Below the pieces are notes generated by a model. The model was not told where the DNA came from. It worked only from the letters and a program-made list of their open reading frames with translations, and made no database searches. A stretch of 64,000 nt of DNA from Candidatus Pelagibacter communis (GTDB taxonomy: Bacteria > Pseudomonadota > Alphaproteobacteria > Pelagibacterales > Pelagibacteraceae), in the NCBI RefSeq assembly GCF_012932795.1, contig NZ_LANA01000001.1, positions 626,858 through 690,857 on the forward strand, given 5' to 3'. Numbering within the stretch: the stretch's first letter is position 1; every line of letters begins with the position of its first letter. A program made the position numbers and the translations under genes. Positions 52,737-61,170 of the stretch are shown piece after piece.

Positions 52737-53090
52737 TGCTAGATGAACGACTTGTCGCTTTAATTTTTAAAGAGGAAAGTCCGGGCTCCGCAAAGACACA
52801 GTGCCAGATAATACCTGGCAGGGGAAACCCTAGGGATAGTGCCACAGAAAATATACCGCCATAACATGGCAAGGGTGAAAAGGTGTGGTAAGAGCACACC
52901 GGTTCTATTGGTAACAATGAACGCTGGAAAACCCCACTGGGAGCAAGACTAAGTAGAGATGACACAGTTGCAAAACAAAAAGCCGTCTTTGGCTAGTCAT
53001 CAGGGTTAGTTGCTTGAGCTTAAGAGTGATTTTAAGCCTAGAGAAATGATAAGTTTTAACGACAGAACCCGGCTTATAGTTTGTCTAGCA
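52737..53090 (+). ncRNA. rnpB: RNase P RNA (bacterial class A)
   Basis: The universally conserved segment GAGGAAAGTCCGGGCTCC starts near 52771, and its partner ACAGAACCCGGCTTATA near 53062. Together they form P4 and the catalytic core. The ends TGCTAGA (52737-52743) and TCTAGCA (53084-53090) pair as P1. GGGGAAACCC and the conserved AGAGCAC region follow. It is the ribozyme that trims tRNA 5' ends, and together with the promoter it explains the 650-bp protein-free gap. Confidence 0.95.
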
Positions 53091-53138
53091 AACTTATCCT
53101 CAATAACTATTTTATAAAAAAATACATGTTCACCTTTT

Positions 53139-53154
53139 GATTCATAATTGAGTC
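53139..53154. promoter_or_regulatory. Two GANTC sites 11 bp apart upstream of mraZ-ftsZ
   Basis: GATTC at 53139-53143 and GAGTC at 53150-53154 lie about one helical turn apart in the rnpB-mraZ gap, 123 bp before the -35. Such sites could be methylated by the CcrM encoded in this window. In Caulobacter, division genes including ftsZ are regulated through GANTC. The role here is inferred. Confidence 0.4.
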
Positions 53155-53276
53155 ATTTCTGTTCTTTTTTTTCTTTTTCAGATTGCAGTATGTTTAAAAT
53201 GAAATTGATCTTTAACTAAATAACAATATACAAGAATTACCCATAATTATTAGTAAATCTGCTTAAAATGAACATA

Positions 53277-53305
53277 TTGACTTAAGTTTAAAAAACCCAT
53301 ATTGT
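53277..53305 (+). promoter_or_regulatory. Sigma70-type promoter of the mraZ-ftsZ cluster
   Basis: TTGACT (53277-53282, five of six consensus) and TATTGT (53300-53305, four of six) have the ideal 17-bp spacing. The expected start is about 53312, giving a leader of some 36 nt. MraZ-like boxes overlap the spacer end, the -10 and the start point. Confidence 0.65.
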
Positions 53306-53319
53306 CCCATATATTCCCA
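53295..53319 (-). promoter_or_regulatory. MraZ operator: three TGGGN boxes 10 bp apart
   Basis: CCCA occurs at 53296-53299, 53306-53309 and 53316-53319, exactly 10 bp apart. Read on the minus strand these are TGGGT, TGGGA, TGGGA with 5-nt spacers, the known binding pattern of MraZ. The -10 lies between boxes 1 and 2, so binding would block RNA polymerase. This points to autorepression of mraZ and co-control of the genes behind it. Confidence 0.8.
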
Positions 53320-53347
53320 ATTATGGAATTTATGAAATATAAAAAAT

Positions 53348-53827
53348 ATGTTTTTATCTACTTACGAGAACAGAATAGACAAAAAGGGAAGGGTGTCAGT
53401 GCCAGCTAATTTTAGGTCTCACCTTTCAAATTTGGGATATAATGGAGTTATTTGCTATCCATCATTCAATAATCAATCTATTGAAGCTTGTTCACAAGAC
53501 AGAATTGAAAAACTTTCATCAAGTATAGACTCTCTTAATCCATTTGAAGAAAAAAGAGACTATTTTGCAACATCAATATTGTCTGAAAGTATAAATTTAC
53601 AATTTGATAGCGAAGGAAGAATTTCGCTTTCAACAAAATTATTAAATCATGCAAAAATAAAAAATAGCATGTTGTTTGTAGGTCAAGGTCAAACATTCCA
53701 AATATGGGAACCAACATCATTTGAAAAATTTAAGGTCAATGCTAGAAAAAAAGCGAATTTAAATCGTGCAAGCCTTAAATGGGAAAAACATTTTAATAAT
53801 AATGAGGGGAATAAAAATGACAATTAA
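53348..53827 (+). CDS. mraZ: Transcriptional regulator MraZ
   Basis: MraZ has two AbrB/SpoVT-like repeats; the first is [20 protein letters not shown] and the second starts [21 protein letters not shown]. Members form rings and repress their own dcw operon through TGGG boxes. It is 159 residues, and the C-terminal tail is basic. Its last 11 bp overlap the start of ftsZ, so the two are coupled. Confidence 0.95.
53804..53809 (+). promoter_or_regulatory. Strong Shine-Dalgarno for ftsZ
   Basis: GAGGGG lies 7 nt before the ftsZ ATG at 53817 and inside the end of mraZ. Most genes in this window lack a clear purine-rich site, so this one stands out. It supports the 53817 start over the longer frame and high FtsZ output. 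Confidence 0.7.
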
Positions 53828-55307
53828 CTTTAAAGCACCAGAGATAAAAGAATTGCAGCCACGATTACTAGTTGTGGGAGTTGGAGGTGCAGGTGGAAAT
53901 GCACTTAATGAAATGATTGATAATGGATTGCAAGGGGTGGAATTTATTGCTGTCAATACTGATGCACAAGATTTAAAATCAAGTAAAGCAAAAGCAAGAA
54001 TTCAAATTGGTTTAAATTTAACAAAAGGTTTAGGTGCAGGAGCCAAGCATGACATTGGTCAAGCAGCTGCAGACGAGTCTTTAAATGATATTATTAATAC
54101 ACTCCAGGGTGCAAATATGGTTTTCATTGCTGCTGGTATGGGAGGTGGAACTGGTACAGGAGCAGCACACGTGATTGCAAGAGCCGCCAAAGAATTAAAT
54201 ATTTTAACAGTAGGTGTTGTTACCCTACCTTTTTTATATGAAGGACCCTCAAGAATGAGAACAGCTCAGCAAGGTCTTGAAGAATTAAGAAAACATGTAG
54301 ATACAATTATTGTAATTCCAAATCAAAATTTATTTAAAATTGCGAATGAGCAAACTACATTTGAAGAGTCATTCAAGCTTTCAAATAATGTTTTGATGCA
54401 AGGTGTACAAAGTGTAACTGATTTAATGGTTAGACCAGGGATAGTTAACTTAGACTTTGCAGATGTCGAAACCGTAATGTCATCAATGGGAAAAGCTATG
54501 ATGGGAACAGGAGAAGCTGAAGGAGAAGATAGAGCAACAAAAGCGACAGATATGGCAATCAGCAATCCGTTGATTGATGACTATACATTAAAAGGTGCAA
54601 AAGGTTTGTTAGTAAACATTACTGGTGGAAAGGATCTTAAACTTTTTGAAGTTGATGAAGTTGTAAACAAGATAAGAGCCGAAGTAGATCCAGAGGCTGA
54701 AGTTATCATTGGAGCTATCACTTCTAGTGATCTTGATGGAAAAATCAGAGTATCAATTGTTGCTACTGCATTAGATGGACAGCAACCAGACAGTAAATCT
54801 GTGATTAATATGGTTCATAGAATACAAAATAGGAATCCTGGGTATTCAGACTTTAATACTACGGGTACAACTCAATCATTTAATTATTCATCTACAGTAA
54901 CGAGTCCTATTTCAGATGGAGCAAATGCATTAAAGTTAGAAAATGAAATTATTGCAGAAACAACTATAAATAACTCATCATCAAAAATTATGAATGAACA
55001 GACTGTTGCAAATCAAGAAGTTGAAAGTATTGTTGGAGACAATAATCTTAATGACTATGAACAATCTTTTGCTGAGGAAGCAGTAAGTACAACTAGTGAA
55101 ATTAAGGAAAAAAATGTTATGGAGACAAAGCATATTTCTAATGGATTGGAAAACTTTGGTGTAGAAGGCGAGAGTGCACCAGATTTATTTAATGCAGATT
55201 ATGAAAATCCAGAATCAGAGAGCTTATTATCTTCGGAAGGTTTAGAAAATATTTCAGACGATGATGATCTAGAAATACCTGCATTTTTAAGAAGACAAAA
55301 AAATTAA
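53817..55307 (+). CDS. ftsZ: Cell division GTPase FtsZ
   Basis: FtsZ builds the division ring. Tubulin signature GGGTGTG is at residues 109-115, after a glycine-rich N-terminal loop ([10 protein letters not shown]). The T7 synergy loop, with [12 protein letters not shown], is present. The long Ser/Glu/Asn-rich linker ends in the conserved peptide [12 protein letters not shown] that binds FtsA/ZipA-type anchors. The protein is 496 residues from the ATG at 53817. It lies second in the cluster, right after mraZ, instead of at the far end after ftsA. Confidence 0.96.
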
Positions 55308-55325: not shown

Positions 55326-56336
55326 ATGATAGCCACCATAATACCAGATGTGAGAAGTCACTATCCGGTGTTACTAACTGAACTAATTAGTATTATAACC
55401 CCTCAATATGGTGGCACATTTATTGACTGTACATTTGGTCAAGGTGGATACACAAAAAAAATACTAAATTTTAAAAATACAAAAGTTATCGCTTTAGATA
55501 GGGATTTAGAGACTTTACAAAAAGTTGAAGAAATTCAAAATAAATATGGAAAAAGGTTTTTATTTAAAAATATTAAATTCAGTCAATTAAATAATTTAAA
55601 ACTCAAAAATGAAAGCGTAAAAGGTGTTATTTTTGATCTGGGATATTCTTACACACAAATAAAAGATCCAAAAAAAGGTCTCTCCTTTGAAAGTACTGGA
55701 CAACTTAATATGAAGATGGGAATTAACAATTTTTCTGCGAATGAAGCAATTAACATTCTAGATGAAAAAGAACTTTCTCAAATATTTAAGTTTTTTGGAG
55801 ATGAAAAAGATAGTAATAGAATAGCACATAACATTGTAGAAGATAGAGAGACGAGAGAAATAACAACAGAAGAATTAGTAAGAATTATTGAGTCATCAAA
55901 AAGAAAAAAAAAATCGAAGACACACAGTGCAACAAAAGTTTTCCAAGCATTAAGAATTTTTGTTAATAAAGAAATAAGTGAACTAATTTATGGGTTAATA
56001 AATGCAGCAAGAGTTGTCAAAAAAGATGGAATTATAGCAGTTGTTACATTTCACTCATTAGAAGATAAAATAGTAAAATATTTTTTTAAAAGTTTATCAG
56101 AAAATAAAAGTGTTTCACGATACATGCCAAAGGGTGAAGAAAAAATTAATCTGTTTAAAACTATAAATAAGAAAGCAATCTTTCCATCAGAAATTGAAAT
56201 TAAAAATAACCCTCCATCAAGATCTGCAAAATTAAGATATGTTATAAAGAAAGAAGATTTTTATGACTTTGAAACTGACATCCTAGAAAAATTTGATTAT
56301 TTAATTAAAATTGAAAACTTTTCTAAAAAATTATGA
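55326..56336 (+). CDS. rsmH: 16S rRNA (cytosine(1402)-N(4))-methyltransferase RsmH
   Basis: RsmH methylates C1402 in the ribosomal decoding site. The family features [29 protein letters not shown] (SAM loop), [14 protein letters not shown] and [16 protein letters not shown] are all visible, and [15 protein letters not shown] ends the protein. Length is 336 residues. It overlaps ftsL by 4 bp (ATGA). Confidence 0.96.
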
Positions 56337-56641
56337 AGAAAGTAGTATTTATATCTATCTTCATACTAATACTAGCTACATCACTAGTAAAGAATTCCAC
56401 AAAAGAAATCGAAGATAAAATTTTTATGGTAAATGAAAATATCAGACCATTAAAATCAGAGTTAGGTGATGTACTTTTAGAGTATAATTACTTAACTTCC
56501 CCAGAAAAATTAACCCAATATCAAAATCAGTATTTTGAAAAAAATTTAATAAAAATTGATATTACTAAAATCAAAAAGTTAATTGAAATGAATACTCAAA
56601 TCAAGATAAGTGACTATATAGAAAAAACTAACAATGAATGA
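56333..56641 (+). CDS. ftsL: FtsL-like cell division protein
   Basis: This 102-residue protein has one N-terminal membrane helix (about residues 4-20) followed by a periplasmic coiled-coil ([32 protein letters not shown]). Sequence similarity is low across the family, but position between rsmH and ftsI is diagnostic. In Escherichia coli FtsL works with FtsB and FtsQ at the septum. It overlaps ftsI by 8 bp. Confidence 0.85.
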
Positions 56642-58323: not shown

Positions 58324-61170
58324 ATGATCATCAGCAATTTTATTAAAGAAATAGAATTAAAATATAAGAATCATTATTTTTCAGGTATTTGTTTTGATAG
58401 CACAAAATGCAAAAAAGATAATATTTTCTTTGCGATAAAGGGAACTAAAATAGATGGTAATAAATTTATTAACCATGCTATTCAAAAAGGTGCAAGAACT
58501 ATTGTTTCTAATCAAAAATTCGAAGGTATAAAAAGGAATATACTATTTATAAGATCTTCTAATGTAAGAAAATCTTTAGCAGAATTTGCTTACAAAGTTT
58601 ATAAAAATAAACCAAAAAACTTAATTGCTGTAACTGGAACTAATGGTAAATCTTCAGTAGCTGATTTTTATTTTCAAATTTTAAAGTTAAATAAAAAAAA
58701 AGTAGCTTCAATAGGTACTCTAGGTATTAAAACACAAAACTATTTAAAAAAAGTTTCAAATACAACTATCAATCCAATTACTTTAAGTAAAATTCTACAC
58801 AAACTTAAAAAAGAAAAAATTAACAATGTGATATTAGAGGCATCTAGTCATGGACTTAAACAAAATAGATTAGATGGTTTGAAATTTAAAACAGGTATAT
58901 TTACTAATTTATCTCATGATCATTTAGATTATCATAAAACATTTAGTGATTATCTTAAGTCAAAACTATATCTTTTTAAAAAATTACTTAAAAAAAAGGG
59001 GAACATAGTCACTGATGTAGAAATTCCCCAATATAGTAGAATTAAGAAGATATCCTTAAAAGAAAAATTAAATATTGAAACAGTTTCAAATAAAAAAGGG
59101 AACTTAGAAGTCATCTCTCATATATATCAAAATGAAAAACAAATAGTTGAAATAAAATATAAGAAAAATATTTATAAATTTAAAACAAAATTAATAGGAA
59201 AAGTTCAGGTTAAAAATATTTTAATGGCAATGATTGCGGCAACTAAAAGTAACTTAAGTTTTAAAAGAGTAATCAATACAATTGATAATCTTAAACCAGT
59301 AAGTGGAAGATTAGAACAAATTGGAAATATTAAAAATAATTCAAGAGTTATATTGGATTATGCACATACACCTGACGCACTGGAAGTATCTTTAAAGAGT
59401 ATAAAAGAACAATTTAAAAATAGACAAATTTCAATAGTTTTTGGTTGTGGGGGAGATAGAGATAAAACAAAAAGACCAATGATGGGTAGAATAGCTAATC
59501 AATATTGTGATAACGTTTATTTAACAGATGATAACCCAAGATATGAAGACCCAAAAGCAATAAGAGCTTCCATTAAAAAAAATATTAGTCAATCTAAAGT
59601 AAATGAGATTCCAAATAGAGCTACTGCAATTAAAAAAGCAATATTTGACTTGAAAACAGGAAATATTTTAATTGTTGCAGGTAAAGGTCATGAAAAAATT
59701 CAAGAATATAAAAAAATTAAAAAATTATTTTCAGATCAACAACAAATATTAAAAAATATTACAATTAAAAATAAAACACTTTCAAGTAACCTTAAACTAA
59801 ATATTTTAAAAGAATTAAGTAACACAAATAATATTTTTTCAAAAATAAAAATTAAAAATGCATCAATTAATTCGAAAGAAATTAGTAAAAACGATATTTT
59901 TTTTGCAATTAAGGGTAAAAATAAAAATGGCAATTTATTTGTTAAAGAAGCCTTTGCTAGGGGCGCATCTCTAGCAATAGTTAATAATCAAAAAAAATCT
60001 AAAAAAAAAATAATAGTAAAAGATACCTTAAAGTTGTTGACGAAATCATCTTCTATTTTAAGAGACAATCTATCAAGTAAAATTATATCAATCACAGGAA
60101 GTTGTGGTAAAACTTCACTCAAAGAATTAGCCGGAAGATCTTTAAATAAAATTAGTCAAGTAACCTATTCTCCAAAATCATTTAATAACAAATTTGGTGT
60201 TCCGTTAAGTTTATTTAATTTAAAAAAAAATGATGACTTTGGTATTTTTGAGGTAGGAATGGATAAAAGAGGGGAAATTGATTATTTATCAAAAATTATT
60301 AAACCTGATGTTGGTGTAATTACAAATGTTTCATACGCTCACATTAAAAATTTTAAAAGTATCAATCAAATAGCTTTAGCTAAATCAGAGATTATAAAAA
60401 ATATAAAAGAGGAGGGTCACCTTATTTTAAACAAAGATGACCAATTTTTTAATTTTCACAAAAAAATAGGATTAAAAAGAAATTTAAAAATTCTTTCTTT
60501 TAGTTTGAGAGATAAAAGTGCAACAGTTAATTTAGACTCTATTTTAAAAAAGAAATCTAAATATAAAATCTCTATAGATATAGATAAAACAAAAAAATAT
60601 TTTTATTTTAATTCTTTTTTTGAAAATGATTTAAAAAATTTATTAGCAACGATTACAATCATATCAATTTATAAGGATATACTTAAATTAGATAAGAATC
60701 TGTTTTATAACCACAAAGTAGCAAGTGGTCGTGGAGACTTAATAAAGGTAAAATTATATAACAAATTTATTTACCTTGTAGATGAAAGCTATAATTCAAA
60801 CCCACTATCTCTAAAATCTGCGTTAAAAAATTTTAATATGATGAAAATTCATAATACAAAAAAACATTTATTACTTGGAGATATGTTAGAACTTGGTAAA
60901 TATTCAAAAAAACTACACACTGAGGTTGGAAAAAGCATTAACAAAACTTCTCTCAAAAATGTTAATATTATTGGTAAGCACACTAAATGGCTATTCAATA
61001 CTCTCGATAAAAGTAAAAGAGGAATTATTATTAAAAATAAATCTCAAATAATTGATTTGATTAAAAACGTTTTAAATAATAATGATTATTTAATGATTAA
61101 AGGTTCCAATTCTACAGGACTTAACAGTTTAACCAATCAAATCAAAAAAGGTAAATTAAATGCTTTATAG
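58324..61170 (+). CDS. murEF: Bifunctional MurE-MurF ligase (fusion)
   Basis: Two Mur ligases are fused in one 948-residue chain. The N-terminal half (about 1-480) is MurE: ATP loop GTNGKSS near 105 and the meso-diaminopimelate motif DNPR near 402, then GKGHEKIQEY. The C-terminal half (from about 495) is MurF: GKNKNGNLFVKEAFARGAS, ATP loop GSCGKTS near 592 and SYNSNPLSLKSAL. It adds diaminopimelate then D-Ala-D-Ala to the UDP-MurNAc peptide. The frame is open across the junction with no stop or frameshift. Confidence 0.95.
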   Translation: MIISNFIKEIELKYKNHYFSGICFDSTKCKKDNIFFAIKGTKIDGNKFINHAIQKGARTIVSNQKFEGIKRNILFIRSSNVRKSLAEFAYKVYKNKPKNLIAVTGTNGKSSVADFYFQILKLNKKKVASIGTLGIKTQNYLKKVSNTTINPITLSKILHKLKKEKINNVILEASSHGLKQNRLDGLKFKTGIFTNLSHDHLDYHKTFSDYLKSKLYLFKKLLKKKGNIVTDVEIPQYSRIKKISLKEKLNIETVSNKKGNLEVISHIYQNEKQIVEIKYKKNIYKFKTKLIGKVQVKNILMAMIAATKSNLSFKRVINTIDNLKPVSGRLEQIGNIKNNSRVILDYAHTPDALEVSLKSIKEQFKNRQISIVFGCGGDRDKTKRPMMGRIANQYCDNVYLTDDNPRYEDPKAIRASIKKNISQSKVNEIPNRATAIKKAIFDLKTGNILIVAGKGHEKIQEYKKIKKLFSDQQQILKNITIKNKTLSSNLKLNILKELSNTNNIFSKIKIKNASINSKEISKNDIFFAIKGKNKNGNLFVKEAFARGASLAIVNNQKKSKKKIIVKDTLKLLTKSSSILRDNLSSKIISITGSCGKTSLKELAGRSLNKISQVTYSPKSFNNKFGVPLSLFNLKKNDDFGIFEVGMDKRGEIDYLSKIIKPDVGVITNVSYAHIKNFKSINQIALAKSEIIKNIKEEGHLILNKDDQFFNFHKKIGLKRNLKILSFSLRDKSATVNLDSILKKKSKYKISIDIDKTKKYFYFNSFFENDLKNLLATITIISIYKDILKLDKNLFYNHKVASGRGDLIKVKLYNKFIYLVDESYNSNPLSLKSALKNFNMMKIHNTKKHLLLGDMLELGKYSKKLHTEVGKSINKTSLKNVNIIGKHTKWLFNTLDKSKRGIIIKNKSQIIDLIKNVLNNNDYLMIKGSNSTGLNSLTNQIKKGKLNAL

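Follow-up and report, generated by a model that had tools for sequence, protein, structure and literature searches.

Bacteria of the SAR11 group are extremely abundant, have streamlined genomes and possess few regulators, and to our knowledge it has not been established how they set the level of FtsZ. In the stretch of DNA analysed here, a window of 64,000 nucleotides from Candidatus Pelagibacter communis in which all coordinates below are counted unless stated otherwise, ftsZ lies directly behind mraZ, and a row of short repeats lies on the promoter of mraZ. The question raised by this locus is whether these repeats form an operator through which MraZ might govern its own gene and ftsZ with it. 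Such an operator would be a concrete, single-site control point before ftsZ in SAR11, and since the growth of marine taxa, Pelagibacterales among them, is already gauged by their ftsZ transcripts (PMC13349992), what controls ftsZ transcription in SAR11 matters for this application.

The promoter and the repeats upstream of mraZ

Judged by its sequence, the gene behind the repeats (53348-53827, + strand) is a true mraZ. Its product scores 74.3 bits with Pfam PF02381, well over the curated threshold of 23, in two stretches that correspond to two MraZ/AbrB-like domains, and MraZ homologues in the PDB were matched with an E value of 2e-7. The residues D11, K13, G14 and R15 of the DNA-binding loop, as well as R23, are conserved among aligned MraZ sequences, that of E. 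coli included. In MraZ sequence the nearest named relatives belong to Candidatus Pelagibacter and Pelagibacteraceae, with up to 93% identity.

Upstream of the gene, the + strand reads TTGACT (53277-53282) as a -35 hexamer and, after a 17-bp spacer, TATTGT (53300-53305) as a -10 hexamer. Three CCCA boxes (53296-53299, 53306-53309 and 53316-53319, + strand), which read TGGG on the - strand, follow one another with a period of exactly 10 bp. Transcription is predicted to start at an inferred position of about 53311-53314, with the third box at or just past the start. A sequence-only reading had reported this period for the same three boxes and had seen the -10 element within one repeat interval, and it proved right to the base: the TATTGT hexamer takes up exactly the 6 bp that separate box 1 from box 2. 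That reading had also spoken of a good promoter. On its own the site is weak, matching the promoter consensus in 9 of 12 bases, and such matches are no commoner than in shuffled sequence (21 sites found vs 17.5 expected), making the promoter scan by itself uninformative as evidence. The promoter is credible because it is conserved in relatives. A further CCCA at 53240 was considered as a fourth box and rejected, being out of phase and outside the conserved block.

Conservation of the repeats in Pelagibacterales

An alignment across Pelagibacterales had been proposed as a check on the 10-bp repeats, and in it the repeats were found to be conserved. The sample consisted of 61 genomes of the order, in 50 of which mraZ was detectable. 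The triple box was present in 49 of these 50, always upstream of mraZ, and in the one exception mraZ is cut by the contig end; by pattern search the triple was absent from all 11 genomes without a detected mraZ, and a control pattern had no match in any of the 61. About 100 loci were compared within Pelagibacteraceae. All sequences anchored on the start carried the triple with invariant boxes, and the distance from TTGAC to box 1 is exactly 14 bp at 100 of 101 loci; the remaining locus is truncated by the end of its contig. A further seven loci, which the pattern used to find starts had not picked up, fit the same arrangement. Over 59 nonredundant Pelagibacteraceae rows the columns of the boxes and of TTGAC, which is invariant, carry 2.00 bits per column, and those 30-70 bp upstream average 0.34 bits per column, the flanking DNA having drifted. 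The -10 gap of the relatives is filled by TAATAT, TATATT, TATTAT or TACTAT at a spacing of 17 bp. In the sister family f2 arrays of 3-5 boxes were seen, and where a TAGAC -35 element was found a box lies 14 bp on and the next gap is the -10 (TACTAT, TATTAT or TAATAT); in one genus of this family (L048) the array is more degenerate, and two of its boxes are exact. As a side observation, MraZ of family f2 may begin at a TTG further upstream with GAGG before it, which would give the protein a longer N-terminus.

Within the genome of 1,279,674 bases, a pattern search found CCCA-N6-CCCA-N6-CCCA a single time, in front of mraZ, with about 0.018 such triples expected from the frequencies of CCCA and TGGG. 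The reversed control pattern had no match in the same genome, and none of 200,000 shuffles of the gap yielded a triple. That the boxes are chance repeats in AT-rich DNA has nothing but their shortness to recommend it; against it stand the uniqueness of the triple, the negative shuffles and control patterns, and above all the invariance of the boxes among relatives, which refutes it, and we regard its probability as negligible. Two-box matches elsewhere in the genome numbered 9 besides the mraZ site, vs 8 for the control pattern. A wider MraZ regulon reached through two-box sites was rejected, since these sites are at background, and nothing points to a larger regulon by this criterion.

Box 3 is also shared by the left arm of an inverted repeat, ATTCC (53313-53317) and GGAAT (53325-53329), on the + strand at 53313-53329. 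In Pelagibacteraceae leaders the sequence at box 3 can pair with a stretch that follows 3-8 nt later, the stem variants TCCCA/TGGGA and, once, ACCCA/TGGGT being found in relatives. Of 23 nonredundant leaders 16 have a stem of this type, vs 9% of shuffles. The inverted repeat could possibly form a 5'-terminal hairpin in the mRNA, its sequence overlapping the operator, and a hairpin is favoured over a second protein half-site because the loop length varies. The covariation supporting it is thin.

The position of ftsZ behind mraZ

The mraZ gene is the first of the cluster of division and cell-wall genes (dcw) and, as the sequence-only reading had stated, ftsZ (53817-55307, + strand; PF00091 and PF12327) is the second. 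It is the only copy, giving the single Tubulin-family match in the whole genome, and its ATG lies inside the mraZ reading frame, with an overlap of 11 nt and with GAGGGG preceding the start codon. Behind it follow rsmH (mraW; 55326-56336, + strand; PF01795, 272 bits) and a gene for a short membrane protein (56333-56641, + strand), termed ftsL-like by position and length only, with no Pfam match. The cluster as a whole runs mraZ-ftsZ-rsmH-ftsL-ftsI-murEF-mraY-murD-ftsW-murG-murC-murB-ddl-ftsQ-ftsA-lpxC, the names beyond rsmH coming from a reading of the ORF sequences. At the far end ftsA is directly followed by lpxC (L044:6434-8530), with no ftsZ in its usual place between the two. The single reading frame of 948 amino acids at 58324-61170 is an apparent MurE-MurF fusion.

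This gene order was seen in all 111 testable Pelagibacterales loci, from both families examined, where ftsZ directly follows mraZ, and in none of the other alphaproteobacterial loci read. In the latter, rsmH stood next to mraZ wherever its motif was found, and for pairs on the same contig ftsZ typically lay some 15-18 kb downstream of mraZ. An unrelated alphaproteobacterial MAG (G252, contig L218) has the order mraZ-rsmH-ftsL-ftsZ, which is either a displaced ftsZ or an assembly artefact.

A conserved gene order is no proof of a single transcript, and a transcript shared by mraZ and ftsZ is what we infer. Placing ftsZ under MraZ autoregulation is suggested by its position, next to mraZ and overlapping it, with no predicted promoter or terminator in between: no promoter-like site was predicted on the + strand between 53320 and the ftsZ start at 53817, in a prediction that is unreliable in AT-rich DNA, and no + strand terminator was predicted between mraZ and rsmH. 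It was considered that MraZ might govern mraZ here while the ftsZ transcripts come mostly from an unrecognised internal promoter, which the unreliability of the prediction would allow, or from read-through of rnpB, so that the operator would hardly affect ftsZ. The class A RNase P RNA gene rnpB (52739-53092, + strand; Rfam RF00010, 281.8 bits) is indeed the upstream neighbour, as has been reported for Candidatus Pelagibacter ubique HTCC1062 (PMC2704228); it ends 185 bp before the -35 element, and transcripts running on from it could bypass the operator. Behind rnpB, at about 53138-53178, lies a low-GC stem followed by a T-run, which the terminator scan had missed and which may be the rnpB terminator that limits read-through. 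Together with the overlap of the two genes, the lack of a predicted + strand promoter between them and an mraZ-ftsZ order that is fixed across Pelagibacterales, this argues against separate ftsZ transcripts, and we consider that explanation unlikely.

A model of MraZ control

Taking the repeats, the promoter and the gene order together, we find it very probable that 53296-53319 is the MraZ operator of the dcw operon, at which occupancy would block RNA polymerase and produce an autoregulation that includes ftsZ. MraZ would act as an oligomer of AbrB-like subunits binding the three TGGG/CCCA boxes, which at one helical turn apart would offer it the same face of the DNA. The -10 hexamer sits between boxes 1 and 2, so that MraZ lying on boxes 1-3 would cover it, and binding of MraZ and of RNA polymerase would be mutually exclusive. 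The product of the first gene would in this manner hold down its own transcript and the genes behind it, and the autoregulation of MraZ would also set the supply of ftsZ mRNA and, presumably, the level of FtsZ.

The sign of the regulation is uncertain, since MraZ acts positively in Neisseria elongata, where deletion of mraZ lowers and its overexpression raises the expression of the first dcw genes (PMC9395523). By analogy the boxes might bind an MraZ that activates or tunes the operon rather than repressing it. In Mycoplasma genitalium, however, MraZ is a repressor of a short, ftsZ-containing cluster, and loss of mraZ raises mraW and ftsZ mRNA (PMC8475190); in addition, the fixed register that puts a box on either side of the -10 throughout Pelagibacterales is better suited to occlusion. 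Activation appears to us improbable, and repression by occlusion is the reading that we retain.

Occurrence in other Alphaproteobacteria

At other alphaproteobacterial mraZ loci at least two CCCA boxes at 10-bp spacing were found upstream on the coding strand in 51 of 56, and at least three in 39 of 56, with a shuffle expectation per locus of 0.005 and 0.0001, respectively. Relative to TTGA[C/T] these boxes mostly have a register of 1-2 (modulo 10), vs 4 in Pelagibacterales, so they are placed differently on the promoter. Among Beta- and Gammaproteobacteria, E. coli included, 18 of 31 loci have TGGG repeats at 10 bp on the coding strand, and CCCA repeats were found in none of these 31 mraZ loci. 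TGGG is preceded by G in 97% of the Beta- and Gammaproteobacterial boxes, by A in 84% of the other alphaproteobacterial boxes, and by A or T in Pelagibacterales. From these comparisons of operator and gene order across Alphaproteobacteria, the operator is, on the sequences compared, old and class-wide, and having ftsZ in second place is characteristic of Pelagibacterales. The idea that the whole arrangement is unique to SAR11 was accordingly rejected for the operator and upheld for ftsZ in second place.

It has to be asked whether the repeats serve another dcw regulator, for example a cell-cycle regulator, with MraZ being incidental. Alphaproteobacterial dcw promoters are bound by other proteins, such as CenR, which binds at mraZ in Rhodobacter sphaeroides; homologues of CenKR were, however, not found in Pelagibacterales (PMC9275681). 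Moreover, the boxes track mraZ genome by genome and stand at most alphaproteobacterial mraZ genes, and their TGGG core and 10-bp period are common to the proven MraZ sites. We therefore judge a different regulator to be very improbable and keep MraZ as the likely ligand of the boxes.

The MraZ proteins differ along the same line. Residues D11, K13, G14 (or nearly so), R15, P19 and R23 are common to Alpha- and Beta/Gammaproteobacteria, whereas in the loop Alphaproteobacteria have N8-K/R9 vs mostly hydrophobic residues or N at position 8 and N or S at position 9 in Beta- and Gammaproteobacteria. Residues 8-9 might cause the switch between ATGGG and GTGGG. That most Alphaproteobacteria carry the MraZ operator as reversed ATGGG boxes overlapping the promoter appears to be new. 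We found no description of these operators in the open-access literature on MraZ in Pelagibacter, SAR11 and Alphaproteobacteria, and the claim is provisional because it covers open-access papers only. The wider proposal, in which a reversed alphaproteobacterial MraZ code, with ATGGG boxes over the promoter core recognised by N8-K/R9 proteins, is joined to a SAR11 switch on which the transcription of ftsZ depends solely or mainly for its control, is plausible but falls a little short of being probable. If it is true, having ftsZ beside mraZ would make a short feedback loop on division in highly abundant ocean bacteria. The class-wide comparison is in any case a natural experiment on MraZ specificity, with GTGGG vs ATGGG in opposite orientations.

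Comparison with known MraZ systems

Binding of MraZ to the repeats of the mraZ promoter has been described in E. coli and Burkholderia (PMC8475190, PMC7761207). The sequence-only reading had called the SAR11 repeats the known MraZ pattern, and this stood for the core and the period, the locus having at least three direct repeats with a 10-bp period before mraZ and the TGGG core of E. coli, on the - strand. It did not stand, relative to E. coli and Burkholderia, for the orientation, the base in front of TGGG and the placement with respect to the -10, and as these three differ, extrapolation from the proven sites is not automatic. The GTG per repeat that has been described as common to the E. 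coli, B. subtilis and mycoplasma sites is lacking in Pelagibacterales, and in place of coding-strand repeats downstream of the -10 the SAR11 boxes are reversed and lie around it.

The dcw operator of E. coli, as relayed from Eraso et al. 2014 by later papers and read here in sequence, resembles that of SAR11 in its three TGGG direct repeats with an exact 10-bp period, which lie directly before mraZ and beside a TTGAC promoter. In E. coli, however, GTGGG is on the coding strand and downstream of the -10, where the repeats of E. coli and Burkholderia have both been placed (PMC7761207), whereas SAR11 has (A/T)TGGG on the opposite strand and around the -10; the gene after mraZ is rsmH in E. coli and ftsZ in SAR11. 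In Burkholderia cenocepacia MraZ binds the repeats at the single promoter of the dcw operon, and this system is like SAR11 in having 10-bp-spaced repeats at the mraZ promoter of an operon that includes ftsZ, but unlike it in having four repeats, downstream of the -10 and over the start site, with ftsZ at the distal end (PMC7761207). As far as the sites of Mollicutes are relayed from Fisunov 2016 in PMC8475190, they are similar to SAR11 in that repeats are present at the mraZ promoter only, and different in that the box consists of AAAGTG(T/G) repeats. The gene order, finally, is mraZ-mraW-MG_223-ftsZ in M. genitalium, as compared with mraZ-ftsZ-mraW in SAR11.
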